Of a stretch of DNA of 64,000 nt, positions 4,838 to 57,003 are shown one piece after another. The first letter of the stretch is position 1. Every line of letters begins with the position of its first letter. Both the position numbers and the translations under genes were made by a program. The notes under the pieces are model-generated. The model was given only the letters and a program-made list of their open reading frames with translations. It was not told the DNA's origin and did no database searches. This DNA is from Gracilaria domingensis (taxonomy: Eukaryota > Rhodophyta > Florideophyceae > Gracilariales > Gracilariaceae): the NCBI GenBank assembly GCA_022539475.1, contig VCMS01000318.1, positions 32,091-96,090 on the forward strand, written 5' to 3'.

Positions 4838-4869
4838 TGTAATCGGTTAGCGAAAAGGGAGGTTTTTGA

Positions 4870-25952: not shown

Positions 25953-25985
25953 CGTCTGTCTCTTGCAGATGCTAGGTTTTGGCGA

Positions 25986-26065
25986 GGGTCGTCCAGTAAA
26001 TCTTTTGAAAAAAATATCGAGATCAATTATTTCAAAATTTGGAGATAATTGCTTGGGTCGTCCAG
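25986..26065 (+). promoter_or_regulatory. Subterminal GGGTCGTCCAG repeats, left end (2 copies)
   Basis: Identical 11-mers at 25,986-25,996 and 26,055-26,065, within 115 bases of the tip. They are candidate transposase-binding sites by analogy with subterminal motifs of other DNA transposons. Confidence 0.55.
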
Positions 26066-26432
26066 AATCGCTGTGCAGTAAATACTGGTGGGTTTTCCAC
26101 TCGTGCTATTTCTTTAGTCGAGGGCTACCTGAACGGTATTTCGCGAAGTCTAGGTTCAGTTTCCATTAAGGTGCACATTACACGATACCTTCTGCGGAAT
26201 GATACCCTGCAACGCATGGAATACTGGTGCTTGTACAGACTATGCCCTTTTTGAAATCATACCGTTTTATTCGTATCTATTCTTCTATCGACCGCTTTTG
26301 ATAACCACTACTTCGCTATATTACATGTACCATTTCCCCATGATTGAGCGGGTGTAGATACAATCTGCGGCAGCTGCCGCGGACTGCACCTGCACCAAAT
26401 TGCGGTATCGGTAGAACACATACGCACCCCAA

Positions 26433-26461
26433 GAGGATGAGGCGCGGAGCGCCTCATCCTC
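26433..26461. repeat. Conserved hairpin in left terminal repeat
   Basis: GAGGATGAGGCGC, GGA, GCGCCTCATCCTC: a perfect 13-bp stem. The same stem occurs in the right repeat at 56,474-56,502 with a different loop, so the structure is retained. Confidence 0.9.
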
Positions 26462-26759
26462 TCGGTTCCTCAAGTAGTGAACCAAGTAAGGAACCATGCC
26501 CAGATGCATACGCGTTGCACGTTCAATTCACCTGCACCTCGTGAGCTACATCCGCATCAGAATTCATTTACCTGTATACGCAAGCAGAAAGTATCCATAA
26601 GTTAGTCAATGCTCTGTTGAATACATTTGAAATGCGATGGAGCGTACCATTGATAAAGCAAAACAGAAACGTTGCGCTAGAAGAGTCGATGTATCTAGTA
26701 AATCGCAAAAGGAAGAAGAAGGGAAGGGATCGGTTAGAATAGCAACAATCCATTCATCG

Positions 26760-27260
26760 TAAAGCGCGAAAAGTGTCGAAGCGAGAACTCACAAGCAAGG
26801 ACACCAAGAATGCCCATGCAGCAAAAATACCGCAAGATGCGATAAACGAGAGGGCAGCCTATGTCACAACCAAGTACCAGAATCGCCTATCCCGCGAGCC
26901 AGTCAATCAAGATCACCAATACAGGAAGATCAACGTAAGGCGCGAGAAGAGAGGCGAGCCTATGCCGCGACCAAGTCTACCAATATCGCCAATGCACCAA
27001 AAGTAACGCAAGACGCGAGAAAAGAGAGACGATCTTATGCCGCAACCTAGTCAACCGAGATAGCCAATGGTCAACCTATCGCGCAAGCCAGTCAACCAAT
27101 ATCGCCAATACACCAAAATTAGTGCAAGACGGGAGAAGAGAGAAGAATCTAGGCGCAACCAAGTCAACCAAGATCGCCAACAAACCAAAAGTAGCGCAAG
27201 ACGTGAGAAACTAGAGCCTATGGCGCAACAAAGTGAACCAAAAACGGCAATACAGCATGA
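26760..27260 (+). repeat. Degenerate minisatellite, about 72-78-bp period, inside the left terminal repeat
   Basis: Five to six imperfect units share GTAGCGCAAGACG(C/T)GAGAA ... GCGCAACCAAGTCAACCAAG ... ATCGCCAATA. The frames stay open and give Arg/Lys/Gln-rich peptides (SARREK, VNQDRQ), but these look like translated repeats, not a gene. Absent from the right terminal repeat, so it was gained or expanded on this side. Confidence 0.65.
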
Positions 27261-27829
27261 GAGGTTACACGAAGAGTCAGAGATAGATCTTGAGAGACGA
27301 AATGAAATCGGTGGCGTAATTACAATCGTTGGGAACGTCGGAATAAATACAAGAGAGGCACACCAAAGAGTGGTTACCTTCTTGAAGAAATAGAACGAGT
27401 TGAAAGGTGAAAACGGGAACCCGGTAACCCAAAGATTATTTTCTGCCGTTACGATGTTGCATAGCGCGAAAAAACGTGGTGAGGATGGGTTAGTTTATAG
27501 CAAAGATACGTAGAAGGATATGGAAGAACGTACGAAAAGACTGCACGGAATACATCCGTGAGATACGGATAATGTCCGCTTTATGGAGGCGTCCATTAAG
27601 CGGGGAAGCGTACCTCATTCTCTTTCTCCGCCCTCTACTTCGTAGCGAGTGCGAGGGCGGAAAAAAATACGACGGAGCGAAGTATAACGCGAGGATGTGA
27701 ATGGCACAGATCACGACGGTAATGGAAGGTCGGACGTCGGACGCGCGGGGCCGGCGGCGGAGGGAAGAGATTTGTTTTACTGGGCGAGATTGGACAGGTG
27801 TACAGCGTACAACGTTGCGAAATCACAGG

Positions 27830-28020
27830 GTGTTCTTGACAAGGTGCGACACGCGAGGGATTTGTACCCATGAATAGGGATACAGGTGGATGGGGGTATT
27901 GGACTGAGTACTGTGAAAGGAGTAGTGAAGGCTGGTGCAAACATTTCAGTTGCAGGATCTGCCATCTTTGGCTCGAGTAACCCAGCTCATGTCATATCTG
28001 GTTTTAGAAAGGTTGTTTAG
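27830..28020 (+). pseudogene. Ribulose-phosphate 3-epimerase C-terminal fragment (left copy)
   Basis: Reads the C-terminal barrel strands of RPE: VLDKVRHARDLYP, then GIQVDGGIG and [21 protein letters not shown], with an in-frame TGA after YP. It starts exactly at the terminal-repeat boundary and lacks all N-terminal catalytic residues. Inverted duplicate of 36,852-37,042. Confidence 0.85.
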
Positions 28021-28657
28021 AGATAGTAGCATAAAATTGTTGTTTATTACACTGTTATCTTTACGTGTTATCATAACTATATTCTCCGCCTCTCTTGGAG
28101 ATGTATTTCTCTTGTGTCTCAACCTGGACAGAATGTGAGAGAACATCAATATATCCCCAGTGGATGCTGAGAGCCAGGATGAACTACTCTACGTGCTATC
28201 ATTATTACACATCCGGTGTCGAGTGGTGACATATTCTTTATTTGTCACAACCCACACAGGATGTGACAGAAGAAGATGCTCCGAGTCGAGACGGAGGGTG
28301 AGCTACTCTAAGTACAATAACTACTGCCCAGCTTGCCTCCACTCGCGATATCTTCCTGTTTTGCCATAACCACCGAGTGAGGTTATGGCCGAAGAGAAAA
28401 ATATCGCCGGCTGAGGCGAGGTGCGTGGCGAGTATGTGAGCGCGAAAGAGGGGACAGAGGGGTGGCGCTTAAATAGTGGAAGGTGCAGAGGTGTACAGTA
28501 GATGTTTTGGCGGGAAAGGGGATGAGGGAAGAAGGAAAAATCATGGTGCTGGATATAGCCCGTGTGGTTGGACAGTGGGGTTGGACAGCACAGCTTAATT
28601 CGACTGCACTGTATCGCAGCGAAAACTTCGATCCATCTACTTCTCCTTCTTCTGAAG

Positions 28658-29567
28658 ATGTCGAACGGATAAGTGAAGAATGAGGAGCTGTTGGCGCTGT
28701 TGGAGCGGAAGGAGGTACCGGGGACTCCGTCACTAAGGCAGGAAGTCTGGTCGGATGTCGCAGAAGAAGGAAGTGGAAGATGAAGGAAAGAAGTGTGGGG
28801 CGAGGAGAGGGGATGGTGATGAGGTGGAGAAGAGTGTAGAATTGGATGTGGAGGGGCTCGCAATGGAGAGAGGGGGTGCGGTGCATCTGAGTCAGTTAGA
28901 AGTTGGAGACCAGATAGAGAGTGAGGGCGGAGAGGGTGACAGGGAGATGCGGCTCGTGGGTGACATGAAGGCCAGGGTGGGGATGTTGGGGTTGTGACGA
29001 AGGAGCGACTGGACGATGGCATTGTGGAGATTGTAACGGATATGGGCGGTGTGGTGCTGAGTGGGGGTGGTAGTGGTGTTTTGGGTGAGGTGATTTCGAG
29101 CCTGCGGAATTTCTTGTCTTTATCAGGAGTGGAGATGAGGAATCATGTGTATGGGATAGTGGAGTGTGCGGGAAGGGAGGTTGGAGAGTTGCGAGAGGAG
29201 AATAGGGTTCTGAACGAGAGGTTGGACGTGCTGGAGAAGGAGGTGAGGGAGCTGGGCAAGAGGCAAAGATTGGTGGAAGAGAAGAATATGAAAGGAGGTG
29301 TGGAAGGAAAGACGCAGAAGGAAAGTGCGGGAAGGGTGGCGGTGCAGAAGGGGTCCCCTATGACACCGAAGACAAAGGGTGGTGGGGTTAGCGATGGGAA
29401 GAGCCGTCTGAAGAAGAGGCGTAAGGAGGTGAAGAAGGTGGTGGAAGGTGCCGCGGGAGGGAGTCGGGGCTCCGGTGTTGACTGGGTTTAGGAGCGCGGC
29501 AGAGGTAGCGCGGACGGCGAAGGGGATTCTGAGGAGACAGGAGGAGAGAAGGATAGGAGGGATGTGA
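28658..29567 (+). pseudogene. Broken copy of the coiled-coil ORF
   Basis: Corresponds to the intact 310-aa ORF at 36,220-35,291, with early stops after MSNG and a frame change near 28,990. The central coiled-coil (GELREENRVLNERLDVLEKE) and the basic tail (SRLKKRRKEVKK) are still readable. Confidence 0.8.
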
Positions 29568-30039
29568 AGCCGTTTTGGGGCGAGGCGCGTATACGAGAAT
29601 GCGGAGAGTTGCCCACCTCACTTCTACGAAATGACGTTTGCGCAGACGGAGAGGTAGGATGCGAAAGCGTGATGTGCGAGAAATGGGTAAAGAGTAGGGG
29701 TGGTGTGGAATGGCAAGAAATGATGGGATGAGTGAATCGGGATGAATTGCGATCGGCATTTCAACATGGGAGAAAATGGAAAGGCAAACCAGCACGAGCG
29801 CAGTTTTGAGAGAGGATCGCGGAAAAGAGTGGATGGGGTGGTGCGGCGAAGTAGAACCTCTACAAAGACTAGGAGACCCAAGAATTAAACTGCGCGAGAT
29901 GGAATTTAATATTCCAAAATTTCTTAATTTTTTGAGTGCCAGTCTTAGCAACCCCCTTGCGCGCCCCAAGTAGCGCAAAAACTAGCTTAGTGTTCAAAGC
30001 GAACAGACTATATTCCACTTTGCAGAACACAGAAGTACG

Positions 30040-33000
30040 GTGCTGCTAACGATAACTCCAAGTATCGCCAGTCCAGGTGGAACGTAAATTACAATACCCA
30101 TGGGCGTTTCGGCCGTCATCCACTTGACGTACTTCATAGGACAGGAACGGGATCAAATGCGTCGAAGAAATCTTTCAACTGTGATGAAGCTGGATGTCGT
30201 GCATCCCAATGCCCGAGACCACTTGACTTTGAACGCATTGCTCGCAACAAAGCTTCCTACTTCGCCAACAAGAATGCACAAAAATCGGTGAACATGTGTG
30301 ATACTCTTGTGAAATTTGCTCGGGAACTGTATGACGAACTTGACGAGGCAAACGCGTCTTTGGATGGTGGCTGAAGCCAGTGCAGCGATGAAACGGCGGC
30401 GGCAAACTTTGAAACTTCTATGGCCTCATTGGACACCGTTTCCGCCGGACAAACCAACGGTGATTTCGAGAATGCTTTTGACGAGTGTTTTCAATGCACA
30501 GCCTACTTAGCCGCGAGACGCTGCCCATAAGGCTCAAGAATTCGAATTGATCCTCGAAGGTTGTTCAGTGCGCTCGTTGCATAGGCTACCACCGTCGTTC
30601 TCCGTTTCACCGCAAGTCCCGTATACCTGGTTGACGCCTTGTTTGCGTGAACAATATCCAGCATCCTCATCAGCCACGCTATTATTAGGATAGGTTTGAC
30701 GGAGCATGTCTCGACAGTAGTGCTGCGAAATCTGTCATTGGACTGCAACAAGCTAAGGCTTACCACCTCATGTCTGGGTTGAGAATGAAGCTGAAGCACG
30801 CATGGTACTCTTTTTTGTATGGTAATGATGTTCGGAACAGTCTAAGTAAAGCGTCCATCCGCATCCCTCCCCAATGGTGGTTTCTTACCCCTCAATGTCG
30901 ACGTCGTGTTAGCTGATGTCCACCTCCTTATTGGCTTGCACGTGATGGATCGGGAGTCTCTAGTACCGGACAATGTGGAGAACATTCTAGACTGCCGCTC
31001 TGCTGGTTGGCATACACCCATTGTGCGTAAATTTGGTCATCTTTTCGTTGAGTGGGATACTCCTCGCATCCTGTTCACGCATACCGAGCTGAAGAAACTC
31101 CACTTACTTTTTTTTCACCCCAATGTAAAGAAGTTGTACAACTTACTGCGCCGAGCACATCCCGACGACGTCAACGCGGATACACGAAAGACCTTAGAAG
31201 ATATCGCTGCCCGATGTCGCATTTTTCAGTCCATTTCGCTGCCCCATACCGCTTCCGAGTCTCCATCTCTCGGGAAAGCTCACGTTCAATCACGAACTGG
31301 CTATCGATCTGATGTGGCTCGAAGGTAATCCAATCCTTCATATTGTAGATACACATACTCGTTATCAGAATGCGATAGTACTGAAGGGTGATTCTGCACA
31401 GGACGTATGGAATGCATTTGTCGATGGGCTTCTGTATACGTCGGGTATCCAAACTGCATACGCTCCAACTCCGCTAAGATTTTACCTCTAAGTTCTGGAA
31501 CGATGTGACGTCTTTGCACGGAATTGATGTCCAGATATCTGGCATTTAGAGCCATAACTCCATTGGCCTGGGGAAGAGATACCATCACCTTCTGCGTCGT
31601 GGTTTTAAGGTTGTCCGCAGCGATCATCACTCGCTCGATCCCAAAGTTGCTCTCCGTCTCGCAGTCAAAGGATCAACGACACTATGGGCCCCGAAGATTA
31701 TGTCCCGACTTTGTTGGTATATGATGTTGCTGCCAACCGCGAACTCGAGCGCCTCAAATCCGCTCTCGAATCTTTCCGTTCTGCCCCCTGCTCCGATGTA
31801 CACGTCACTGAAGTACTCTCACCTCGCCATCCCCGTTCTTGCTTGCCCCAGTTTGACGCTGTCAAGGTAAAGGAACTTTCTGGTCCAGCAGCTCGCTCTG
31901 TTTCTGAAACTGTTTGTCGCGAGGAAGTACCCTCGGACGCCAACGTTATGGGTGGCCGTTTCGTGCTTCCTATCAAAAACAAGGGCACCGACGAAGAGGT
32001 TTATAAAGCTCGTTTCGTTGTTCAGGGCCATACGGACGCAGAAAAAGCGCTACTTGTGCATCAGAGCACTACCGTGAAGCAAAGTTCTATCCTTATGTTG
32101 ATCGTCCTCGCTGCCATCTTTGATTTTAGTCTCTGGTCTCAGGACATCTCGCAAGCCTACCTCCCTTCATCTCGTCAGCTTTTGCGCGACGCATATGTTA
32201 ATCTTAGCGATGAGTTCCATCTATCCCATGATCATCTGTTGAAGCTCTTGAAGCCCTTGTATGGACTGTCTGAAAGTGGCGACCACCGGCATGCGACTTT
32301 CGCACGGCATCTTCGTGACGACCTTTTGATGCGCCCTATTTCTACTGACCTTGCCCTTTTCTTTCGCACTATTCATGGAAAGCTGTTTGGACTCATGGGT
32401 ACTCACGTGGACGACACACTGACTGCCGGCAATGACGATTTTCATTCTGCTTCTCGCACGACTGACCAATCTTGACTCGAAGCCAAAGAAATATGATTCA
32501 TTCGTGTTTGCTGGACTTCAGGTAGAGCAGGTAGATCAAGGGTATCTTATACACCAGGAATGATACTGTAATCGCCTTTCAGTACTCTCCAAAGACTGTT
32601 CCTTCCATGACTTTCGCTGCCGTCGTCAGAGGCTGCATGGTTGTCACACACACGTCCTGACATAGCTGTGGAAGTGAATCTTCTCTCCCAAGTTACAGAG
32701 AAGACCTGGTGCCGTGATGTACTAAAGCGCGTGAACGGTATCGTGAATTACGTACAGGAAGCTCCTCGTCATGGTATTCTCCAGCAACCACTTGATCGAA
32801 GCTCTTTGTGTCTTAAAGTATTCTGTGATGCATCCTTTTCCAACGCGATCAACTTTCGTTCACAACCTGGATTTATGGATGTACTATGTGATGCTACTGG
32901 GAAGTGCAACGTCCTGCATTACGCGAGCTACAAGTCAAAGCGTGTTGTTTGTTCTGTCCTGCGTGCCGAAGTCTACGCCTTTGCCGACGCTTTCGACTTT

Positions 33001-33400
33001 GCGCACTCTTTGCGTCACAATCTAGAACGTATTCTCGGAAATTCATTCGCTGAGCATGTACACTGATTCCGACAGCCTTTTTAAGGTGCTGATCAAGAAT
33101 TCTACAACTACCGAGCGTCGAATGATGATCGATGTTGAGTCAGCACACGAGGCGTACACTGCAGCAAAAATTAGCGATATTGGCTGGATCCAGAGCTAAG
33201 ACAGCCCAGCAGACGCCTTGACTAACTATGGGCGCTGCGTAGCACTTGAAGCTCTCCTGGATAAGGGTCAGATAGATCTGGACATTTTACAGTGGGTTAT
33301 ACGCAATGATGGTTTGCAGGCAAAGCGCGACACTCCAACTTTCCTGACGTCAGACTCTGGGAAATATCGATCTACGTTGTGTCAGCAATCGTCGACGTGA
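30040..33400 (+). mobile_element. Dead Copia-like element inside the inverted duplication
   Basis: Plus-strand fragments in order: a zinc-knuckle-like CxxxxxC...C segment (30,17-30,22 kb), a pre-integrase LHLLFFHPNVKKLYNLLRRA region (30,906-31,328), integrase start (DLMWLEGNP...DTHTRYQNA, 31.3 kb), RT (31,684-32,475; FVLPIKNKG, YKARFVVQGH, SQDISQAYL, THVDDTL) and RNase H (32,641-33,066; SHTRPDIAVEV, CDASFSNA). Motif C is HVDD. No LTRs or target duplications were found. It is a different lineage from the Copia at 13.8-19.5 kb. Confidence 0.75.
31684..32475 (+). CDS. Copia-like reverse transcriptase fragment, 263 aa frame
   Basis: The longest intact frame of the dead element. It contains the RVT_2-type motifs listed for the element, with LLKPLYGLSESGDH in place of the LYGLKQAPR motif and HVDD at motif C. 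It ends at a frameshift before RNase H. Atypical residues at two conserved motifs suggest either a divergent Copia lineage or decay. Confidence 0.65.
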   Translation: MGPEDYVPTLLVYDVAANRELERLKSALESFRSAPCSDVHVTEVLSPRHPRSCLPQFDAVKVKELSGPAARSVSETVCREEVPSDANVMGGRFVLPIKNKGTDEEVYKARFVVQGHTDAEKALLVHQSTTVKQSSILMLIVLAAIFDFSLWSQDISQAYLPSSRQLLRDAYVNLSDEFHLSHDHLLKLLKPLYGLSESGDHRHATFARHLRDDLLMRPISTDLALFFRTIHGKLFGLMGTHVDDTLTAGNDDFHSASRTTDQS

Positions 33401-34314
33401 TGTGCTGTTGCATTTTACCTTATTCTTTATTGTTTGTACTTGAATTTTTATTGTTTGTGCTTGATCACGGCTCAGTTTGAGTGCAATTGAACGCAAAAAG
33501 GTTGGTGCGTGTTTGACCACGCGACCATCTGCATTGTACTTAGACTTAGGTCTCTGGTTTTCTCCAAGCAGGAACGAGGGAGAAGACGGTCATCTCTAAA
33601 CTATCGTTTTGTGTTTCCTGTACCTCGCTACTCTGAGTTCCTGTGAACTTTTCTCGTCTCGTGACAAGACCTGTAGCTCTACGATAGCGCCGACGACTAC
33701 GGTCTTGCTCGACAATAATGCATATATATCGATGGTGCTGGGCTAAAGCTCCTGAACAGAGGAAATACTTTTCATAAACGGTGACTTCGCTTCTCGCGGG
33801 CACAAATTGATCACAGCGAGAAGATGCCCTGCTTGGAACGCAGGACTGCATTCACGTAATTCTTATAAGCGATGAACCAGTATTTAACATAATTACTGCA
33901 CCCAAAATCACTCATCTGCATTCCGGCCAACCGATTCACCAATACGACACGTGTGACTACGTGGGTAAACAAAAATTCGTTCATCCGCGTGGCGTACCGT
34001 TGTGTAGGGGTGGTATGCAGATTACGGTGTATTCAATGAGAAAAGAAGTGAAAACATATAACATTTTCACGTCCTACCTTATTGATGGTTCTCTCCCTAT
34101 GGAATTAGAAGCGACATATGTATTCGTAGAAAGCAAAGAATTTCCTCAACTAAATTTTCTTTATATTTGTCGCACTTTGTACTCGACGATAACAAAATAC
34201 CCCGGCCTTCGGCACTCATGCATTTCAATATCCATCTCTCTATATTTCGGCATCAAGATCTCTTTCCGCGATATATCTGCAAAGAACTATTACAAATTAC
34301 AACGAGAACACTAA
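33401..34314. other. Spacer without supported gene
   Basis: AT-richer sequence with short ORFs on both strands, none with domain or repeat support. Confidence 0.4.
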
Positions 34315-34785
34315 ATGGATGAGGTGCTTGTTGGTTACATTTTCTGGAAGTCTAAGGAGGACGAATGTAGGGCGGATGCAGTTCGTGATGAGCAGGAAAA
34401 CGGAAAGAAGCGGCACCAGAACTTAGAGTTCTGGGCGAATCTGAAGAATCATGCTCTCGCTTCTTCTGGGAAAACATCGAAACAATTTCATGACAGAGCT
34501 CTGTCCCTGCTTCTAATAGGCTCTAATGACGAAGGAAACTCTTTGTTGATATCTGGCATGGCCCCGAAGATATCCTCACTCGGATCGAAGGATAGTTCTG
34601 ATGTGGAAGAGATACTTCCAAAACCCAGCGACGATGTTAGCGTGAGTAGAGAGATTGATACTTCTAAAAACAAGCCCATAACAGTGCCTCAATCATCAAT
34701 AGTGAATATCATCGATTGTTCGGAGGATTCAAGAACTGATGAATTTCTATCACTGTTGACAACCGAATCAGAAAAGCAATATTGA
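34315..34785 (+). CDS. Unrecognised 156-aa ORF
   Basis: Acidic, Ser-rich protein with a charged helical N-terminus (SKEDECRADAVRDEQENGKK) and phosphorylation-type Ser-Asp clusters. No known motif. It lies in the loop of the inverted duplication, just before the right arm. It could be a fragment of a larger retrotransposon or transposon accessory protein. The ORF is open and of normal composition, but nothing confirms that it is expressed. Confidence 0.3.
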   Translation: MDEVLVGYIFWKSKEDECRADAVRDEQENGKKRHQNLEFWANLKNHALASSGKTSKQFHDRALSLLLIGSNDEGNSLLISGMAPKISSLGSKDSSDVEEILPKPSDDVSVSREIDTSKNKPITVPQSSIVNIIDCSEDSRTDEFLSLLTTESEKQY

Positions 34786-34855
34786 AAAGCGGCACTTTCA
34801 CTTTGCAACTTTCTCCGGATTTTGTCACCTGTGTTCGTTCGTTACTCCCTATCGT

Positions 34856-39971: not shown

Positions 39972-40023
39972 CTATGATATGAGATCTCAGTAATAAAAGT
40001 GTCGTATATATCTCAATACCCTT

Positions 40024-45097: not shown

Positions 45098-45116
45098 GTT
45101 GAACCGCTATTGCAGT

Positions 45117-45780: not shown

Positions 45781-46350
45781 GACCGACCCCCTCCCGCCCG
45801 CGGGCACGTTCTGGCCACATTCTGGCACGCTCCAGAGACCTCCCAAAACACTCCTCCCGGCACTTTTTGTACCCACTGCGTCACCTTAGTGCACCATCCC
45901 GTCATCTTCACCCTCCAGACATTCCCTAATTTCCGGGATGGTGCACTGAGGTGACCATCCTGTCTTCTCCACCCTCCAGACACTCCCTAATTTCCGGGAT
46001 GGTGCACTGAGGTGACGCAGTGGGTATAGGAAGTGCCGGGAGGAGTGTTTTGGGAGGTCTCCGGAGGGTGTCAAAAAATCGTCCAAAACGTGCCTGCGGC
46101 CGGGGGGGGGGGGGGTCGGTCGTGTTAGGTAGGTACCCTAACACGACCGGACCCCCCGCCCGCGGGCACGTTTTGGACGATTTTTTGAAAAATGTGCGAT
46201 TTTATGCCCGCGGGCGGGGGGTCCGGTCGTGTTAGGGTACCTACCCCAACACGACCGACCCCCCCGCCCGCGGGCACGTTCTGGTCACATTCCGGCGCCT
46301 TCCGGAGACCTCCCAAAACACTCCTCCCGGCACTTCCGGCAGTGATTTCG
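45781..46350. repeat. Foldback/MITE-like inverted repeat cluster
   Basis: The module CGCCCGCGGGCACGTT...AAAACACTCCTCCCGGCACTT appears at about 45,795-45,870, in reverse orientation at about 46,020-46,115, again forward at 46,150-46,200, and in full at 46,262-46,340. A 60-bp tandem duplication (CCGGGATGGTGCACTGAGG) lies at 45,905-46,017. A run of 14 G occurs at 46,102-46,115 and a CGACCG palindrome around the TAGGTACCCTAACACGACC segments. This is a hairpin-forming non-autonomous element, probably several nested copies. Confidence 0.8.
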
Positions 46351-46603: not shown

Positions 46604-49111
46604 ATGGATTCCACCGATGTTGGAGAGGAGATACATCCTATCGACATGAGTGCTCCGCCTCCGGCGTTCCATGCATATGTCAGACTTTTCTTGGTTCTTC
46701 GCGATGCTTTGGCAAACAGCGATGGAGGCCCTGATCGGCCACGGGACGTGGGGTTTAGAGGGTTAATAGAGTTCTGCGCCGAGAACTATAAGGATATTCC
46801 GGAGGCAAGGAAGATGTTTGAGGAGGCCACTAACTCCAAGAACCTGCAGAACTTGCACTGCAACAGCTGCGAAAGAGTGTTGTGAATAACAAACCTGTGA
46901 ACAACGATATCTTGTAACGAAGCTTCTTGACAAGAAGGAGGATGAGGACCAGAGACTGCGCGATTTTTTCCTTCTCTCTACGGATATGGGTATATACCTA
47001 CCGGTGCGATGCCTGGTTGGTTATTTCATGACCAGGAGAAAGCAGGTTCTGAAGACGACAGTGTTCATCCCACCAACAGCTGTGAACCCATTTGAGGTCG
47101 TTATATACTTATCATACCTCGGCCACATAATGGGAGAGAACGACAACATCCGAATGATGAAGAAGAAACAACCGAAAAAGAAACGAAAAGTGAACCATGC
47201 ACCATTGTGTACATACCCGCTTTTACGTCGTTCTCCAAAGACAACTGTGATCGACTGGGATTCGGTATCAGTGAGGTCGTATGGGCATGGAGTTGTTTTG
47301 CGGCTCATCTTGGATACACGAACGTTCAGCACATGGTGAAACCATACATTTACATGAATATGCAGACGTTGAAGTATACGGCGCTAGAGACACGGGAGTC
47401 TGGTTATGCCCGCCGAGCCAGAGTACTCGATTCAACACACAGGATGTGCCACAGAGCAGTACTAGTGGATCGGTGGAGACCTTGAGTGATGAATGCGATA
47501 CAAACCTCCGAATACTGGGTAAGGAATTTTTGACAGACCTCGAAACCGTATGCACCCACGATAGCCTCTATAGCTTACGGGTGATCAGATGAGGAACTGG
47601 ATAGAGTTTTCGGACATACGGATGGATACCGTATCTGGTTCTGACTCCGTGAGTTGCCTGCTCGATTTCAGAAGTTTTCGGAGTTGCTATGGAAACCGAT
47701 ACAGGATATGCGTCATGCGGCAGGGTTCCATGTCGGCATTCACGCGAAACCTGATATTGAACTCACGAAAACCCCTAAAACTTCCGGTAATACCGAACCT
47801 TCTTCGACCAAGTCTGCCCCACCCCACCTCGTCGAGAATATATGAACCTCGTGAGCTCCGATAGCGACGAGTTCGAGAAGCCGGTGAATCTTGCGGAGCA
47901 TGAATCTCGGGTTGCTGTTACTTATCCAAAAGACTGGTATTGAGCCGCCCATGAAGGGGATATCCAGTCTCCTTCGAATGAATATGGACAAGGTGTGGAA
48001 GGGGATGAGAAAGTCACACTTTGCAGCGTACAACTGTGACATGAAGGACTGAGGCACACACACGAAACGTTTGTGAATCAGAGTGAGATTTTATGGGGTG
48101 AGGCACAGCTTGTCCTAACAGACCCTCCCTTTAACACTCGAAGGAAGAGGAAAAACGGAATAGTGGTCACGATGTCTTCAGTGAGGAAGACATGATCCGT
48201 ACGGCTGACTTAATAAGTTCCGCGCTTCGGTCAGGTGGGCACTTCATTATATTCTGTGCCATGGCACAGTTTCATGTTTGGCACAGGATACTTTCGGAAA
48301 CGGCGAGTACGAAAGATGAAGCTGGAAGCGAAGGTAAACCAGAACTCATGCCTTCGTTTAAAGTGGATGCGAATCCATTGGTGTTCATCCGGGATCGAAG
48401 TAATGTTGGCGGGAATCCACGGAAGTTTGGGATACAGCCCGTAACGGAGTACGCCGTTCATGGGTGAAGCGTGGATTGCGACCATCGGAGGAAGCCAGTC
48501 TTACTCCATTTAGGAGAACAATTTCATTCCTTCTACTTTCCCGGCTAACAGGAATGTAATTGACCGGGTGCCAAACCGAGAGCGGGGGAGTGGTTGACAT
48601 GGAAGGTACATGAGCCAAGTAGTTCAGTACCAGGTGGGCAGTACATAAGACCGGAGCAGAAGTCGAGGGAGTTGATGAAGAAGTTGATATGTGGCTTCAC
48701 AAGACCGGGTGATCTTGTCATGGACATGTTCGCGGGAACTTTTTCTGCGGGTATGGCGTGCCTATCGCTGACAAAGCATAGGAAGTTCTTGGGGTGCGAG
48801 AAGAATAGGCCATGTTTCAGCCATGCGAAGCACCATCTAACGACTCTTTTGGCGAAGTTATTCGCGGGGGGAAGAATGACATCCTGGTTGAACAGGAGGT
48901 GGTGGATGCGGCTTCAACGACCTATGAACGGGTTCCACATCGGGACCGAGGTCGGCTTGAATGGGAGGCTCCATTTGGTTACCCCCAGTACCAAGTGATG
49001 CCTGGACATATTACTCAGTTCCTAGGAAGATACTGGAAGGACTGGGACTTTGTCGAGAAGTGTGGACAGCATACTGTAGATCTTTGGGAGGAAAGTACCG
49101 AGGAGCTCTGA
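46604..49111 (+). pseudogene. Beta-class DNA amino-methyltransferase, multiply frameshifted
   Basis: N-terminal helical segment (46,604-46,885), then shifted frames with a basic stretch (KKKQPKKKRKVN, nuclear-localisation-like), then the catalytic domain. Motif IV is TDPPFNTRR (DPPF at 48,121-48,132), followed by DLISSALRSGGHFIIFC (motif V-like). Motif X/I follows: RPEQKSRELMKKLICGF, then GDLVMDMFAGTFSAGMA (about 48,705-48,755) and FLGCEKN (motif II). IV before I places it in the beta group of N6-adenine/N4-cytosine methyltransferases that use S-adenosylmethionine. At least four frame changes break it. A natural cofactor Gly (FAGTF) and the catalytic DPPF are intact. Confidence 0.7.
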
Positions 49112-49116
49112 ATCTA

Positions 49117-49722
49117 ATGGATATGCATATGCTGTTGACTGCTGAAGCCAATCGCTATCGCTTACATATAGCATCTTCTAAGATTCAACATCCCCGTGCT
49201 GGTATGGGGGTGTTCACGGAACATAAGATATTGGCTGGGGAAACTATCTGTCATTTTTATGGAACTTTGGTATACACGGATCTGACGAACCGGAAGGAAA
49301 GACACTTAACGTATGGAAGTGGCTGTCTCGGAGCAACTCCAGTGCGGTACAAGTTGTTTTCTATGATGGTCACTGTGACTGGTACGGAGTTTCTGCACCT
49401 GAGGAACAGACCAGGACAGGCTCAGGATAGAAAGGAGAGCGAAGTCTACATTTTCCCGGCGCCTTTTTGTATCGGGGGCTACATTAACGACGCCGGATAT
49501 CATGCCGGGGATCCCGATTTATCGGAGCCCCGCTCAAACAGGACTCGAAGTGCCAATGTGCACGTGGTGGAAGCGAAGTCCGTGATACAGTTTAAGTCCG
49601 ACCTTTCTAACTATGCTCTACTTCGTTGTAGAGCAGTAAGAGATATTGAGAGGTGCGAAGAGTTGTATTTCAACTACGGAGAGCAGTACGCCTGGGACTT
49701 GGCTCTGACATTGGAGCAATAG
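49117..49722 (+). CDS. SET-domain protein, 201 aa from internal ATG
   Basis: Start ATG at 49,117, five bases after the methyltransferase stop. It may be a separate ORF or, after one frameshift, the C-terminal domain of the methyltransferase. It shows SET signatures: AGMGVFTEHKILAGETI at the N-terminus, GGYINDAGYH...SANVHVVE in place of the NHS-type region, and EELYFNYGEQYAW matching the ELxxxY motif at the C-terminus that closes the lysine channel. Predicted protein-lysine methyltransferase, possibly on histones. The usual NHSCxPN motif is degenerate, so activity is uncertain. Confidence 0.68.
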   Translation: MDMHMLLTAEANRYRLHIASSKIQHPRAGMGVFTEHKILAGETICHFYGTLVYTDLTNRKERHLTYGSGCLGATPVRYKLFSMMVTVTGTEFLHLRNRPGQAQDRKESEVYIFPAPFCIGGYINDAGYHAGDPDLSEPRSNRTRSANVHVVEAKSVIQFKSDLSNYALLRCRAVRDIERCEELYFNYGEQYAWDLALTLEQ

Positions 49723-49975
49723 ATGAGTTCAGTACCGAATAGAAAGTAAATATGCTTGTGAGTGTTGCAGCTGCCTGCAATACGCGTTGTTGTACATGTA
49801 CACTGGAGCTCTTCATCTGTAACGGAGATATTTGCGACCCATTGGGCACCTCAAATTCCTAAAAAGCAGGAACTGCAGAGTCTCCCGGAATATCTGAACC
49901 ATGCACCCCCCATCTCACCCCTTACCACCCCCCCCCCCAACAATTTCGTTTCATTACCCCGTTTATCTCCACAAT

Positions 49976-51394
49976 ATGGGTATAACGCCGAGAAAGCGAA
50001 ATAGTACGCAGCGGAACAAGAGTGGACAGAAGAAGAGAAGAGCATCGGATGATACGAATCAGGCTACAAGCACCGCACTTCCTAAACGGAAGTCGTCCTC
50101 GACGAAGGAGAGAGTCAGTGGGCGTCCTTCTACAGTACTCTCTCGCCCATCTCGCAGCGGAGCGTCTTCCGGGATTGCGTCAAGAATTCGTGGATCAGCG
50201 AACGATGTCGTGCCGTCAACTGCCGATAATGCAAATCGTGCATCTGTCTCTGCTCCTCAAGAAGATGAGGTAACTCGGCCCAGCGGGTCAGGACAGGAGG
50301 GCATGACAACTGGAACTGAAGAGGTTCGTATGACACCAAAACCTTCATGTCCCCGGCCGATATCGAAGACCGGAGCTACTGGGGCGCGGGTTACGCAGCC
50401 CAGTGGATCTGGACAACAAGGGACAATGACGAGAAGTCGTGAGAGCCCTAGTATATTAAGATCGTCACGTCCATCCCTGTCTTCTAGAACTGGGGCCGCT
50501 ATGAATCGTATCATGCCTCGCAATGGGTCCGGACAAGGGAGAAAGACAATAAGAAATCGAGAGACAACTGATATACGAGTTACTCCTCGACCTTCCCCTC
50601 TTTCCAGAACGGGGGCCGTTGCAGCTCGTACGAGGCCCAATTCATCTGATATACCATGCCATGGAGGAGGACAGACACGGGAGTTGGAGCTCGGAGCCGT
50701 GTCAAGGGTGGACAAAGAACGCCTGCAGCCTCTCGTTTCTAAGGCTATGGCACATGAGGATAGTTCCGATAACGAAATAACACCGAATCCTGCGGCATTA
50801 CCGGGGCCTGTCGCCGAAGAGGCTAGGGAAATACCGGAAGATATTCACACTGGTGTGAAATCAACCTCTATGAACAGACGTGATCTTTTAATTGAACTGA
50901 ATTGCTTGAAAGAAAAGGTTAAGACGCTACAAAAGGACTTGATGGTCCGGGGAATTCTAGTGAAGGTCGCCCAAGAGCAGAGTACGGCTTTGAAAAAGAG
51001 GCTTGAAGAGAAGGATCTAGTCATTGAAGGGCTAAGAGGGGCACTGAAACAGGAGGGAGATAGGAGTACACGTGCTGGTGAACCTGGGCAGACAGGTCGA
51101 AAGAAGCATAAAATTGAGGTGTGCGACGAGTTTCGAGGGGTTGCTCGAGCAGTGTATCACAACATGCTGACGTGGGCAAGAAGAGAAACAAGTGAGCTAT
51201 GGCTCGAAGGTGAGTCGCTCACCCGAAATTGGGGTAACCGTGCCGAGAAGGTGGAAGACGCAACTGAGAGTGGGGAAGCGCTTATTGAGCCGGAGGGAGG
51301 TGGTTCATACATGGTTCCTAAAAACCCCGTGGAGCTCTTGGGCAGTTTTGGCATGTTCATACTGTCGGTAGAGGGGGGCCAGATGCTTTGCTGA
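49976..51394 (+). CDS. Nuclear repeat/coiled-coil protein, 472 aa frame, 5' part
   Basis: Start chosen at the Met of MGITPRKRNSTQRNK, which begins a basic nuclear-localisation-like leader; the upstream in-frame Pro run comes from a C-tract. Residues about 100-220 hold three tandem units of about 43 residues (PSGSGQ-x-G-x-x-T...RPS...KTGA). A coiled-coil (LIELNCLKEKVKTLQKDL and QSTALKKRLEEKDLVIEGL) follows, then an acidic segment. The frame stops at 51,394, and a shifted frame continues into a second half. No known domain. Its position between SET and transposase genes suggests a cargo or accessory DNA-binding role. Confidence 0.5.
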   Translation: MGITPRKRNSTQRNKSGQKKRRASDDTNQATSTALPKRKSSSTKERVSGRPSTVLSRPSRSGASSGIASRIRGSANDVVPSTADNANRASVSAPQEDEVTRPSGSGQEGMTTGTEEVRMTPKPSCPRPISKTGATGARVTQPSGSGQQGTMTRSRESPSILRSSRPSLSSRTGAAMNRIMPRNGSGQGRKTIRNRETTDIRVTPRPSPLSRTGAVAARTRPNSSDIPCHGGGQTRELELGAVSRVDKERLQPLVSKAMAHEDSSDNEITPNPAALPGPVAEEAREIPEDIHTGVKSTSMNRRDLLIELNCLKEKVKTLQKDLMVRGILVKVAQEQSTALKKRLEEKDLVIEGLRGALKQEGDRSTRAGEPGQTGRKKHKIEVCDEFRGVARAVYHNMLTWARRETSELWLEGESLTRNWGNRAEKVEDATESGEALIEPEGGGSYMVPKNPVELLGSFGMFILSVEGGQMLC

Positions 51395-52371
51395 AGAAAA
51401 TGGTTGAAAGCGAGTTGAAGGAGTTGAGCTGGGAAGGTATTAGAAAAGCATCTCTTATCGCCAGGTGTATACTGGAACTTTGTGCAGATATGTGCCTTAG
51501 GCAGAGAATGCGGCAGACCATGAGTGACGTCGTGGGTGTTCGTAAGAGAAAGACGAGGGATAAACTATTTCTGCTCCTGGGGTACGATCTGATTTGGAGA
51601 AGAACAAAGCTGGTAGAAGAGAATGCTGACGAACTCACAATGCAGTTGAAGGAAGCGCAGGAGAACATACTGCGTCTTGACGAAAATGGTGTACCGAACA
51701 CTTCATGGTAAAGAAAAGCCCCATTTGTTCGTCTAAAGTACTCCAATGCGGACAATGTCGAGCATATGCCGACGGAAGATCAAGACTTGTTCTTCCGAAA
51801 CCGTGTCGGGGTACAAGTACTGAAGGAGTTTATTGGGTATGATGTGGAAGACAAGGATACGGGCACCTTTTTAGATGGCACAATACTGTTGCTCGCACGT
51901 TTGGACGCTTGGGTGTTGACGGTTGTGAGCCTTCTAAGTACGGATGTGTCAAGGAGTGGCCAGAGACAGAAACTGTTTACAAAGAAGTTTGCCGAACTGC
52001 TACCTCTGTGTTTAAAGAATGTTCTGGGGGATGTTAGGCAACGTGTCTTGAGGACCAATTCCAGCGAGTTCCATAATTTTGGAACGACAACGGAAGATTG
52101 GACTAAGGTTCTTGGTAATGACATGAGAGAGGCTACATTTGGATATCGAATGCCGTCGAACGGAAGACTTTACCTCACTGTGAAAGAACAATTTTTTATT
52201 GACAGTGTGAGCCGAAGATTGGGGTCTATTAGCGATTGTTTCCTTGGTGAATGCGAGGAAGGGGATATGGAGTTCAAGGAAATGGACATGAACGATTTCG
52301 GAAGTAACACAGGATCACAAGAAAAGGCACCACAAGGCGAACATGTAGAGGATGGAGCCCTTAATGTTTAA
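51388..52371 (+). pseudogene. 3' part of the coiled-coil protein gene
   Basis: Frames 51,388-51,711 and 51,766-52,371 continue the preceding ORF after frame shifts or stops near 51,390 and 51,712. The last segment is a globular-looking 200-residue region (LLARLDAWVLTVVSLLST; TKKFAELLPLCLKNVLG) with an acidic end. It ends four bases past the stop of the convergent transposase gene, so the two 3' ends overlap. Confidence 0.45.
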
Positions 52372-55300
52372 GGCTGTACAAGATCAACGTGCTCAGTTGG
52401 TCCTTCATCTGAATCATGATAGAATCGATTGATGTAGAATCGGTGTTGGAACCATTGAAGTGGAGGACTAAAAGGTGGAGCAGGGTAGTTTGATCGAACA
52501 ACATGGACAGTTCCCTGTAGTGCAGAAGCCGGAACCATCCCGTACCAAGGAGTTAACTCTACGATAGTCTCCGCTTTGGAATGACGAGGGAACGGAAGAG
52601 TGTGGTTCTTTTCATCGTTTGTAGCCCACCGTAAAGATATGCATTTCAATATGTGGTCGATGTTTGTTGCGGGGGGTAAAACCTCGAAATACCGGACGAA
52701 TGCCACCTCTGGTGCGGTAACTGCAGAATCAAGGAGAGATATTCGAATCAGAGCGACTACCTGGGCAACCCAAGTCTCTGAATCTTCTCCGCCTACAAAT
52801 ACAGCCGAAAACTTTGGCTTTCTACTGGGACCAAATGCTGGAGAAGCGAAGACACGTTGGATGATGGGGTATTTGGGTCGTCCCAGCTTAAGTGCCTTAG
52901 AAGACGAATCGAAGTGTTCAAGAGTCGGAACGAAACCGCCTTTCACGAGCGCCGAATTCACCAGAGTTATCCTTGTCTTTTCTGGGAAGTATGTAATAGA
53001 GTGCTCATCCAGTTTTTCTTTCACGAGACTGAGGAAAGGAGGAAGGGCCTGTTCACCAATTTGGTCAAGAATCGACCTTGTGTCCGTACTTGAGAACATC
53101 TCTCTAACAGCAGTCCATGTTTTTGAACTGGACATACTTGAAACACAAGGTTGAAGAGCTCGTAAAGTGAAAGAACGCCCTCTCATTGCAAATCTAGGAA
53201 GCTGTGTGGAAGTTCCTGGTAAACCTGGATTACGCTGGTAAGGAGTATTGCCGTTCCATTGCTTTCTAACATGTCCGTATTCAATGGAGCGAATAGTCTC
53301 CTCCACAGCCGTTGCTGTTCTTCTGGACGTCTTTTTGTAGTGTCTCTTAAATAGCAGGTGTGCATGTTCGTATATGCCTGCGTCGTAGTACTTGATACTT
53401 CCCAGACGGCGAATATCGTCCACGAGATGATCGAGAAGATGAAACTTCAGAGTTCACAGTCTGGAGGGATGAAGATCCGCCAGAGTCTTTGTTGCGGAAC
53501 GCTTGAAGGCTTCAATCTCCGAACTAAGACACAGGAGAGAGCTTTCAGTCCAATACGGGTCACGATTGTATCTGAATAAGGTCGAAAGCAAGTCCGAGTA
53601 CTGAGAGAAAACGGTTGTGATTGGGGCAACGTCCTGTTCTCCACAGCATATGTCAAAGAATGCTCCTATGAAGGGAAAGACCATGTCAAGTGCTTTGTAG
53701 TTTTTGGCCTCCAGCATTCCACGGAGACCGTCTTTCGTGAAGATACCATTCAAAGATTTGCCTTTCTCCTGCGTGGAGAAATCGATATGTAAACCTTTGG
53801 CAGGAGAATCGCGTTCTATGGCAGGTAGAATTGCGTTTGCATGGTTTAGGAGTTGGGTGCGTATCGTTCGAAATGAACGCGATGCAGATGTTCCTATTGT
53901 GGTGCACAGGGTGTCTGACTGCAGTCTCTCGATTGTGGCCGTTTTTATCAACTTTGAGATGCCGAGATGCAAGTTGTGTAATGGTTCGAATGAGAACAGA
54001 CTGTATGGAGACAATCCCGGGATCATTCCAAGGCTTACGGAAGTTTCGAGGAACGAAGGAATGAGAGATATGGAATTTGAACGCATCAGAGTATCCGCTT
54101 GAGATCTCCTCTCCCTCGCACGACGTGGACGTCTTTCCGCCTCGTCTTTTTGTGCATGTCGCAAGATAGCTGTGTATGTCTTTCGGATGCTTCTCGTGTG
54201 CTTTTGAGAACGTCCGTTGAATGAGGTGGGAATAGAACTGCATAAAGATGAGCGAGGGGCTTTGCATCTATGACACGGGCTTTCCGTTTTGGTCCCATGA
54301 AGAATGGACAGAATGTCCTTAGCCTCAGGAATATCCGCACAATAACTTGCAAGCAGAGGATGGCACACTCGACTTAGTTTGTCTTCGCCGATGAACTGAA
54401 AACCTTTCTGCGTGAGATTTAGAATGGGCTCCAGGACTTGACGAAGAGATTCTTGAAGGATTTGCATCCTGGACTCGCGTAGAGACTTGCAAGAAACGAA
54501 TTGCATTGCGTCTGCTTCAGATGCGGAAACCTCGATCAGTGTGGTAGGGAAGTATGCCACTACTGTGAGGTAATCACGGATACACTTACGGCAAAGCTCG
54601 TCGGAGAAGTTGAGAAATATGACGTGAAGAGGATAGGCGGTAACCGATGTTTGCTTTAGAGTTGTTGAAGACTTATCGGTGTATACCTGCAGAAGACCTA
54701 CGAAAGATTCACTGTAACTTATTTCTTGGGAGTACCACACTATTCTACTATCCAAAGAGCCCATGACCATTTCCTTAAGTTTTGAGGTGGCGTCTCTTGC
54801 GAGAGAGCCGGACATGGGGTGAGATATTTTCGTGGAGTGGGTCTGAGGTATAGGGTGGAAGAATTTGTTTTCGTTGTTAGCCAACTGGAGCTGTTTCAAA
54901 AGTGTCTGAACGGGGTCTCTCGTGTAGAGGGTGGCGCTGAACTTACATCCTTCTGGCGAGCCAGTTCTTCGATTGAAACCGTCCTTTGAGGCATATCGTT
55001 CGAAAATGGCGTTCTTCAGTTCTGTACAGCGCTTGGAACTTGTTATGGTCTCGTTGAATCGCTTTTGCGAGAATCGCGGGTCCCGAAGTAGCCCAATTAG
55101 CTCGTCTGCCTCACGATGACCAAGGTTGGAAGCTACTGAAGCCAGACAAACCGTGAGGTAATCCATATGCAAATCACCGAGGGCCTCCTCAGAAGGCACT
55201 GAGCGGGAACTGCTTCCGTGTTCTCGCTCTAATGACGCGGGACCCGGGGGAGGAGAAACACAATGCGAAGTGTCCGGAATGGGAGGGGCGCACGGAGTGG

Positions 55301-55547
55301 AGTCGACGATGTCCTCGGACACCGGAGGCTCGGGAAGGCGACAAGGGGCAGTGACCGTTTCGGAAGATGCGGGCGCTGGTGCGGAAAGCTTTAGACGCTT
55401 GCTTCTCCGAATGGGCCGGCTATTGTCGTCTTCCAGCGCTGCTTTCAGACGAAACGGGAAATGGTTGACATGCTGTTGAAGAGATAAGACTTCTCTGCGA
55501 GTAACGAAGGGGCACCCACGCTTCTTATGTGTACAGTAGTAGACCAT
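52368..55547 (-). pseudogene. KDZ/Plavaka-like transposase, one frame with a single internal TGA
   Basis: Codes about 1,059 residues from the Met of MVYYCTHKKRG (55,547; the frame is open to 55,643). N-terminal zinc finger: Cys5, Cys12, His26, His29. A long disordered region follows, then the conserved transposase block: QTSVTAYPLHVIFLNFSDEL, YLTVVAYFPTT, VCHPLLASYCADIPEAKD, the PCHRCKAP knuckle and LFSFEPLHNLHLGISK. After TGA at 53,454-53,456 the same frame continues as TLKFHLLDHLVDDIRRLGSIKYY...EHAHLLFKRHYKKTSRR, a region typical of the C-terminal part of these transposases. Cut-and-paste transposition is expected. The stop is the only lesion seen. Confidence 0.72.
53454..53456 (-). other. 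In-frame TGA in transposase
   Basis: The codon between ...LHPSRL and TLKFHLLDH. Upstream and downstream segments are in the same frame with no other stop, so it is a point nonsense mutation, a readthrough site or a sequencing error. Confidence 0.85.
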
Positions 55548-55764
55548 GGGAAGAAGAAATGAACGAGAAACGACGACAAAGACTGCAAGGGAAGGTTGTA
55601 AGAAGGGAGAAGGAGGTCGAGCGACAGTCAAGATCGACGTCATGCTGGGAACGGAGAATATATTTTGAGTTTAAATCACGTGCTTTCGTTCAAAAAGGAA
55701 CGTAGGTACACGTCGACCTCAACACAAGGGTGTACTTCTCGTACTATCTACCACTGGTTATAAA
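55548..55764 (-). promoter_or_regulatory. Presumed transposase promoter
   Basis: About 215 bases between the chosen start and the inner edge of the right terminal repeat. It includes an AAAATATATTC TATA-like stretch at about 55,657-55,667 on the minus strand, roughly 110 bases upstream of the start Met. Confidence 0.35.
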
Positions 55765-56429
55765 CCTGTGGTTTCCCAACGTTGTACGCTGTTCACTTGT
55801 CCAATCTCGCACAGAAGAATAAATCTCTTCCTTCCGCCGCCGCCGCCGCCCGTCCGACGTCCGACCTTCTGTTACCGTCGTGATCCGTGCCATCCTCGCG
55901 TTCTACTCCGCTCCGTCGTACTTTTTTCCGCCCTCGCACTCGCTACGAAGTAGCGTGCTGAGAAAGAGAATGAAGTACGCTTCATCTCTGCTTAATGGAT
56001 TCCATTAAGCGGACATGAAGCGTACCTCATTCTCTTTCTCCGCCCTCGTCGGACGCCTCCATAAAGCGGACAGCATCCGTATCTCACGGATGTATTCCGT
56101 GCAGTCTTTCCGTGCAGTCTTTTCGTACGTGCTTCCATATCCTTCTACGTATCTTTGTTCTAAACTAATCAATCCTCACCACGTCTCTTCGCGCTCTGCG
56201 ACATGTAAACGGCAGGAAAAAGGCTTTGGGTTAGTTTTGCGAGTTACTAGGTCCCTCGAATTTTCTAGCGCAACGTTTCTGTTTTGCTCTATCAATGGTA
56301 CGTTCCATCGCATTTCAAATGTATCCAACGGAGCATTGACTAACTTATGGATACTTTCTGCTTGCGTATACAGGTAAATGACTTTTGATGCGGACGTAGC
56401 TCACGAGTTGCAGGTGCAGGTTCATCAAG

Positions 56430-56463
56430 TAGGGAACCATGCATCTGGGCATGGTTCCCTACA
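56430..56463. repeat. Hairpin in right terminal repeat
   Basis: GTAGGGAACCATGC, ATCTGG, GCATGGTTCCCTAC: a perfect 14-bp stem. The left repeat keeps only one arm. Confidence 0.9.
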
Positions 56464-56473
56464 TTAGGAACGG

Positions 56474-56502
56474 AGAGGATGAGGCGCTTCGCGCCTCATC
56501 CT
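56474..56502. repeat. Conserved hairpin in right terminal repeat
   Basis: GAGGATGAGGCGC, TTC, GCGCCTCATCCTC: same stem as 26,433-26,461. Confidence 0.9.
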
Positions 56503-56870
56503 CTCGGAGTGCGTATTTGTTCTACCGATACAGCACTATGGTGGAGGTGCAGTCTGCGGGATCTGCCACAGATTGCGCCTACACCCGTTCCATCATGGAG
56601 AAATGGTACATGTAATATAGCGAAGTAGTGGTTAGCAAAAGCGGTCGATAGAACAATAGATACGAATAAAACGGTATGATTTCATAATGGGCATCATCTG
56701 TACTAGCACCAGTATTCCATGCGTTGCAGGGTATCATTCCGCAGAAGGTATCGTGTAATGTGCACCTTAATGGAAACTGAACCTAGACTTCGCGAAATAC
56801 CGTTCAGGTAGCCCTCGACTAAAGAACTAGCATGAGTGGAAAACCCACCAGTATTTACTGCACAGCGATT

Positions 56871-56970
56871 CTGGACGACCCAAGCAATTATCTCCAAATT
56901 TTGAAATAATTGATCTCGATATTTTTTTAAAAAATTTACTGGACGACCCTTGCCAATTTCTGGACGACCC
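56871..56970 (-). promoter_or_regulatory. Subterminal GGGTCGTCCAG repeats, right end (3 copies)
   Basis: Reverse-strand 11-mers at 56,871-56,881, 56,939-56,949 and 56,960-56,970. One more copy than at the left end. Candidate transposase-binding sites. Confidence 0.55.
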
Positions 56971-57003
56971 TCGCCAAAAACTAGCATCTGCAAGAGACAG
57001 ACG

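Follow-up and report, generated by a model that had tools for sequence, protein, structure and literature searches.

Can a DNA transposon carry its own system for marking DNA and chromatin? The question is raised by a stretch of 64,000 nucleotides from the red alga Gracilaria domingensis (contig VCMS01000318.1, here C318, positions 32091-96090; hereafter the window, in whose numbering all positions without a contig name are given), in which long inverted repeats surround genes predicted to modify DNA and histones. We consider it probable that these genes belong to a giant cut-and-paste family of the Plavaka type, highly multiplied in G. domingensis, whose core is made up of a transposase, a fusion of a DNA methyltransferase (MTase) with a SET domain, and a fusion of a ParB-like domain with a 2-oxoglutarate (2OG)-dependent dioxygenase-like domain, the two fusions acting as a write/erase pair. 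What the sequence establishes is a repeated family with defined ends, its gene content, the fusions and a module conserved in two families.

Structure of the locus

The genome assembly that was compared and searched comprises 77.9 Mb in 680 contigs, close to the genome size of 78 Mb given for this species in PMC10388701. The original prediction had placed a single 31-kb transposon at 25953-57003, on the strength of inverted ends with identical tips. Those ends are indeed present (25948-27829 and 55765-57008, in pieces 87-93% identical, with identical tips CGTCTGTCTCTTGCAGATGCTAG). The key to the structure is, however, a further inverted pair, 27827-30033 against 34855-37045, again in pieces of 87-93% identity. 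The ends at 25953 and 57003 are of the same type ('B') and come from two different copies; the partner of the B end at 57003 is an 'A' end at 34853. The left (A) end begins CGTCTGTGTTCTGCA and the right (B) end begins CGTCTGTCTCTTGCA. Five other copies (on C315, C218, C51, C20 and C169) were fetched with their surroundings and compared to the window, with matches of at least 150 bases and an E value of 1e-10 as thresholds. Homology to the window runs from 34853 to 57003, with some internal gaps, in the copies on C315, C218, C51 and C20, and the copy on C169 is truncated by the contig end. At 25953-30033, a B end and an A end meet without intervening sequence and overlap by 3 bases, AGG; on this comparison, the segment is an internally deleted copy of the family in the opposite orientation to its full-length neighbour. 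The window, so read, holds this deleted copy, a 4.8-kb spacer and a full-length element of 22.15 kb at 34853-57003. The main features are as follows.

34853-57003: full-length element of 22,151 bp, whose ends and, apart from gaps, interior recur on C315, C218, C51 and C20
34853-37045: left (A) end region, from the inverted-repeat and copy comparison
55765-57003: right (B) end region, with short direct repeats at 56868-56977
41185-45097, minus strand: ParB-2OG fusion gene (ParB-like and 2OG-Fe(II) dioxygenase-like domains); frame broken in this copy
45117-45780: assembly gap of 664 N separating the divergent ParB-2OG and MTase-SET genes
45781-46339: nested inverted repeats, rich in GC, that lie between the divergent genes and may be a foldback repeat in its own right
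46604-49722, plus strand: MTase-SET fusion gene (PF01555 and PF00856); frame broken in this copy, P0001 aligned in pieces
52371-55670, minus strand: Plavaka transposase gene (PF18759 domain at 53457-55670); one in-frame stop in this copy
25953-30033: internally deleted copy, inverted relative to the full-length element (B end at 25953-27829, A end at 27827-30033)
30034-34852: spacer between the copies, with a Copia reverse transcriptase remnant at 31609-32472 (RVT_2, 3.4e-12)

A single transposon bounded by 25953 and 57003 would account for two inverted B ends with identical tips that enclose the cargo. We nevertheless regard it as very improbable, as other copies run from an A end of the 34853 type to a B end, with no B end outside A in the approximately 11 kb of outer flank fetched for each of the four (4/4), positions 27827-27829 are a B/A deletion junction, and the 31-kb unit has no target duplication. 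Since 25953-30033 is a deleted copy and a Copia-bearing spacer follows it, the 31-kb span runs from the B end of one copy to the B end of its neighbour. The wider proposal, a mobile giant element with its own DNA- and chromatin-modification genes, fared better: rather than occurring alone or around unrelated interiors, the A and B ends enclose the same cargo in four copies. The 664-base gap noted at the outset is likewise there.

Copy number and ends

DNA probes for the transposase, MTase plus SET, 2OG plus ParB and both ends gave at least 40 matches each, and a protein probe gave at least 52. The matches of six probes, merged within 26 kb, make at least 202 loci on 171 contigs, at least 90 of them with ParB-2OG. 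Among full-length matches, ParB-2OG DNA is 96-100% identical, which suggests recent spread. The tip CGTCTGT is common to the 35 ends fetched first, a set chosen for matches that started at the tip, and 34 different flanks occur among them; one-base variants of the tip occur at the right end on C315, at the left end on C20 and in the deleted copy of the window. Repetition with a shared tip and different flanks is no chance pattern. Long copies with both ends identified span 21.5-24.3 kb, a complete element being put at about 22-24 kb, and shorter or deleted copies are also present, namely 25953-30033 of the window and copies of about 10.6 and 10.7 kb on C115 and C231. Partner ends were found in four of five fetched stretches, then in one of 12, and eight further stretches yielded three ends, so that many ends probably stem from copies that are broken or differ in length. 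To judge from C218 (L016) and C169 (L025), right ends are of two or more types: in one, a stretch of about 335 bp that corresponds to 26564-26894 of the window is repeated in tandem; the other resembles 25953-27829.

The transposase

The product of the gene at 52371-55670 matched the Plavaka profile PF18759 above the cut-off (1.3e-17 and 1.1e-18). Of the original assignment to a KDZ/Plavaka-like group, the Plavaka half stands (1.3e-17, at 53457-55670) and the KDZ half was dropped: a scan of Pfam, which includes a KDZ profile, with E values up to 10 reported only Plavaka for the transposase, and Plavaka is separated from KDZ in PMC12730594. The D, D, C(2)C, H(3)H and E motifs, including CHRC and HLLDH, are found in both families described below, the catalytic residues having been assigned by eye. 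In two fetched copies the transposase frame is open over 1100 codons, and a genome-wide scan places 21 of the 123 Plavaka matches listed in 1100-codon frames without stops. The tips TGT..ACA (PlavakaA) and CATCA..TGATG (PlavakaB) are not present; CGTCTGT stands at the 35 ends instead. Because the former tips were described for fungal subgroups, the red-algal element may represent a further subgroup. Starship giant transposons are characterized by a tyrosine recombinase captain; none was detected in the frames scanned, a subset of all frames.

Two fusion proteins

The four cargo domains predicted at first, a beta-class MTase, SET, ParB and a dioxygenase, were all found (ParB weakly, the dioxygenase at the level of motifs); what did not hold is their separation into four genes, as they form two fused proteins. 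For MTase-SET, the window copy matched the N6_N4 methyltransferase domain at 3.3e-10 and SET at 2.4e-7, and both Pfam domains are present in one public protein of 1015 aa, P0001 (PF01555, 9.9e-19; SET, 7.8e-6). Its residues 642-1010, from the MTase through the SET domain, read in a single frame in L015 and L019, and in a copy of the second family (L117) PF01555 (1.2e-14) and PF00856 (2.2e-6) share a single open frame of at least 1020 codons. Stop-free frames of 1055 codons, identified by length only, occur at eight of the 150 MTase matches listed and fit the length of the fusion. Judged from these reading frames, MTase and SET are one fused protein. In L015, L019 and L026, three of the six MTase genes compared, the frame changes at the same place, near residue 642 of P0001; a shared mutation, an error or recoding may be the cause.

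The motif DPPY or DPPF is followed by FxGTF, the beta-class order with DPPY before the S-adenosylmethionine-binding motif, and solved relatives of P0001 include CcrM and DpnA. Both observations make the N6 of adenine the likelier target. The N6_N4 domain is described in the consulted parts of PMC8885841 as having repeatedly evolved specificity for N6-methyladenine (6mA) or N4-methylcytosine. A search for a prokaryotic origin of the fusions retrieved, by the patterns used, only generic MTase cores, and nothing for the 2OG family.

For the second fusion, matches to PHROG ParB families at 6e-4 and 7e-4 (both weak) identify the ParB-like domain, for which there was no Pfam match; its DGxHR motif is invariant in 6/6 members. 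Relatives that contain both halves (P0008, P0009, P0012, P0013 and P0014) are 993-1102 aa long, P0008 ending within the 2OG part before the distal histidine. The HxD motif of the dioxygenase part is found in 11/11 members, and HxD, the distal histidine and the distal arginine are invariant in 7/7 aligned domains, a set from which P0008 and P0011 (no readable distal part), P0007 (glycine for arginine) and P0015 (residues kept) were omitted. In the window, L019, L022 and L026, four of the six copies compared, a one-base difference splits the halves into different frames; L011 reads on. The matched ParB-and-linker part is free of stops in 21 of the 52 matches listed, in frames of up to 1308 codons, the query having been without the 2OG part. 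From this evidence, ParB and 2OG also are one fused protein. Introns in the cargo genes were suspected and the idea was dropped, as other copies read through as long single frames.

The identification of the dioxygenase rests on its conserved motifs, whose layout, with HTD, a GSH motif and GRGDxxHAG, is reminiscent of phytanoyl-CoA-type dioxygenases. A link to TET/JBP enzymes is not supported: Tet_JBP (PF12851) matched neither the domain nor any of 11 family members. A fungal host was rejected on protein matches to the red alga G. domingensis, one record of which agrees with a cargo protein at 100% identity over 90% of the query region and another at 93% over 99%. Two Gracilaria records of the ParB-2OG protein, P0005 and P0006, are named as a SasA-like cell-wall protein and a Mediator subunit 15-like protein; in both sequences the dioxygenase's catalytic core is missing.

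A second family that shares the core

The matches of the Plavaka scan were of two kinds, separated by their span on the profile. Over 672 aa, the transposase of the second family (L120, on C12) shares 49.6% identity with its first-family counterpart, and the motifs agree. Pairing with 131 of the 150 MTase matches listed placed a convergent MTase within 12 kb of 22 of the 86 listed Plavaka matches of the first family (14 of them at 5324-5360 bp) and of nine of the 37 of the second (eight at 5519-5581 bp); six listed Plavaka/MTase pairs within 12 kb have another arrangement. Neighbouring ParB-2OG and MTase genes within 8 kb were divergent in 30/30 cases. On C12, the MTase-SET gene of the second family is followed by its own divergent ParB-2OG gene (P0008, 1.7e-85), spread over several frames and encoding the motifs LIDGAHR, LHTDF, GRGDVFHAG and RYHMY. 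The first-family MTase-SET protein is 37-39% identical to P0001 as against 29% to the second family, and the first-family 2OG domain is 49-50% identical to P0008 as against 39% to the second family. Should P0001 and P0008 belong to other species, both families would predate the split of those species. Since the same three genes are kept in the same order and orientation in both families, the module looks like an old, retained part of a transposon lineage. At L119:3855, a first-family 2OG gene is interrupted by a copy of the second family, whose tip is CGTCTGTGTTTCC; when an empty site was sought there, the right end of that copy was not found in the 1 kb examined.

Proposed function and alternatives

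We infer movement by this transposase, the enzyme activities and their substrates, and the direction of the effect, as follows. As known for its family, the Plavaka transposase would move the element by means of its CGTCTGT ends. MTase-SET would write a DNA mark, most likely 6mA, and a histone-lysine mark at one place. The ParB-like part would hold the oxidase on the DNA of the element, where the 2OG part would oxidise a methyl mark and thus remove or alter it. The two fusions, divergently transcribed, may in this way act as a write/erase pair that sets the chromatin state of the element itself, with the outcome that the element is kept transcribable against host silencing or that transposition is tied to the state of methylation. 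In eukaryotes with AMT1, 6mA lies between nucleosomes that carry histone H3 trimethylated at lysine 4, downstream of transcription starts (PMC12695648, in the portion consulted), and a transposon-borne adenine and lysine methyltransferase could imitate such a permissive state. A more far-reaching form of this proposal, which we put forward tentatively as a possibility, is an old transposon lineage with a complete epigenetic circuit of its own, in which an adenine and histone-lysine writer and a ParB-guided eraser label the element independently of the host, possibly with a mark that the host does not use.

Several observations weigh against a functional element with such a write/erase pair. 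The reading frames of the window copy are broken by frameshifts and a stop, and stops also occur in many other copies; the assembly is a draft with gaps and frame-breaking differences, some of which are possibly errors. Among the matches listed, 64/86 of the first family and 28/37 of the second are without the convergent MTase within 12 kb, for part of which deletions and contig ends may account. The SET region of P0002-P0004 is not recognised by Pfam. PHROG 3264 matched at 7e-4, a weak match, in one of six members only. The dioxygenase part matched no Pfam profile, no NCBIfam profile (P0009) and, convincingly, no PDB sequence, and the Gracilaria record P0007 has glycine where the distal arginine stands. 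The within-family ratio of nonsynonymous to synonymous substitutions in the transposase is only moderately low, 0.44-0.63 on 15-65 changes. The observed/expected CpG ratio of the element, 0.90 as against 1.00 and 1.07 in the flanks, is not markedly depleted and so gives no hint of long or heavy silencing by 5-methylcytosine (5mC) from which to escape. A 2-bp target duplication was seen in four of 13 copies (p=0.08 at a chance rate of 0.13 per copy) and, once C139 (none) and C178 (AT) were added, in five of 15. It is present in both copies of about 10.6/10.7 kb and in three of the 12 long copies and absent in the 4.1-kb deleted copy of the window; 3-bp duplications were seen in 0/13 copies.

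Missing duplications may be due to assembly joins or to recombination between near-identical repeats. The flanks, with both ends pooled and p values uncorrected, favour C at -3 (28/61 ends, p=4e-5) and A at -2 (28/61 ends, p=1e-3), a preference that fits a palindromic target with a 2-bp duplication. For the ParB part the within-family substitution ratio is 0-0.30, on 0-5 changes. In both genes the changes are too few to prove constraint, and the argument for selection rests on conservation between the families.

Among the alternatives, the main one is that the modification genes control transposition itself, through its timing, end recognition, self-immunity or restraint of copy number, and do not counter host silencing. 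Dam methylation controls some bacterial transposons, and the presence of a writer and an eraser on the same element, the repeats near the ends and the lack of marked CpG depletion, hence of any trace of heavy 5mC silencing, all suit this explanation. The SET domain points instead to chromatin and not to DNA ends only, and we think control of transposition rather unlikely. That the genes are chance-captured passengers without function is improbable: the epimerase fragment and the HAD genes listed below do look captured and many copies are broken, but two families whose transposases are 50% identical agree in the three core genes, their order and their orientation, the motifs are retained at 29-39% protein identity, and the same fusions occur in proteins from other public sources.

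An origin as the remnant of an endogenous large DNA virus or a Polinton-like element has in its favour that large viruses, too, have intron-poor genes and carry genes for adenine methyltransferases and SET proteins. Amoebidium has virus-derived giant repeats as well as Plavaka repeats (PMC11244446, as far as consulted). Such an origin is hardly credible here, given a transposase with matching ends and no capsid, polymerase B or packaging gene in the scanned subset of frames. In viral contigs, peptide patterns detected generic MTase pieces but no other relative of the fusions, and P0009 had no match in phages. We retain the Plavaka-type family with a write/erase pair. If it holds, whether selfish DNA runs an epigenetic system of its own becomes directly testable, by the marks in native long reads and by the enzymes in vitro. 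Single anti-silencing or chromatin genes on transposons are known, whereas here two fusions are kept together in at least two diverged families. The family is also a possible source of writers that act on DNA plus histones, and it accounts for the two oddly named Gracilaria records P0005 and P0006.

Other features of the element and the window

Besides the three core genes, the full-length element contains the following.

36855-37172, minus strand: ribulose-phosphate 3-epimerase gene fragment (Ribul_P_3_epim, 2e-24), in the left end region
37369-38472, plus strand: open frame with a Rossmann-like motif seen by eye; no family match
39021-39971, plus strand: HAD-IIB hydrolase (Hydrolase_3, 5e-13; TIGR01484 just above the cut-off on C315)
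40024-40884, minus strand: second HAD-like hydrolase (Hydrolase_3, 7e-5)
49898-52368, plus strand: open frames of a coiled-coil-like protein; no family match

The epimerase fragment is probably a captured piece of a host gene. The core motif of the repeats at 45781-46339 is also found in four fetched copies, and similar letters flank the element on C51, so that these sequences may be an independent foldback repeat and not a promoter common to the two genes or a site for ParB. Outside the two copies, a Gypsy-type reverse transcriptase gene at 25518-25952 (RVT_1, 5.7e-26) ends where the deleted copy starts, and comparison with C51 recognised no other half of this gene in the window. Further upstream are an open frame at 120-1298 with a sub-threshold IBR/RING-like match (0.0012) and, at 3065-4846, a reverse transcriptase gene (RVT_1, 1e-17) of an appearance resembling elements without long terminal repeats.

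Comparison with known systems

TET/JBP genes are carried by many fungal DNA transposons, including Plavaka and KDZ, which are treated as separate groups (PMC12730594, Kojima 2025; here and below, published systems are compared on the basis of parts of the cited papers). Like the Gracilaria element, such fungal transposons combine a Plavaka transposase that has C(2)C and H(3)H motifs with an internal dioxygenase gene predicted to act on methylated DNA. The Gracilaria element differs in that its dioxygenase is unmatched by TET/JBP and is fused to ParB, that its host is a red alga, that it adds the MTase-SET fusion and that its tips are CGTCTGT, not TGT or CATCA. In Amoebidium, giant Plavaka repeats with tyrosine recombinases have been described, with virus-derived giant repeats beside them (PMC11244446); tyrosine recombinases are the genes named there, whereas the Gracilaria element has defined ends and a three-gene core. 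The terms 'ParB', '2OG' and 'SET domain' are absent from the main text of that paper.

Oomycete HarbingerS and MuDR transposons carry SET genes (cited in PMC12730594) and are in this respect similar, being DNA transposons with a SET histone methyltransferase, but they belong to other transposase families and the passage that cites them mentions no fused DNA methyltransferase. The N4CMT protein of bdelloid rotifers (PMC8885841) likewise joins, in a eukaryote, an N6_N4 methyltransferase of bacterial type to a chromatin domain. It is, however, a host gene product with a chromodomain that has transposons as its targets, whereas the Gracilaria fusion is encoded on a transposon and contains SET. In the open-access literature we found no description of an MTase-SET or ParB-2OG protein in a transposon, which does not prove that none exists but is in agreement with the initial expectation that the combination had not been described. 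A DNA transposon with epigenetic cargo is thus a known kind of element; the two fusions, their pairing and their host are what is new to us.

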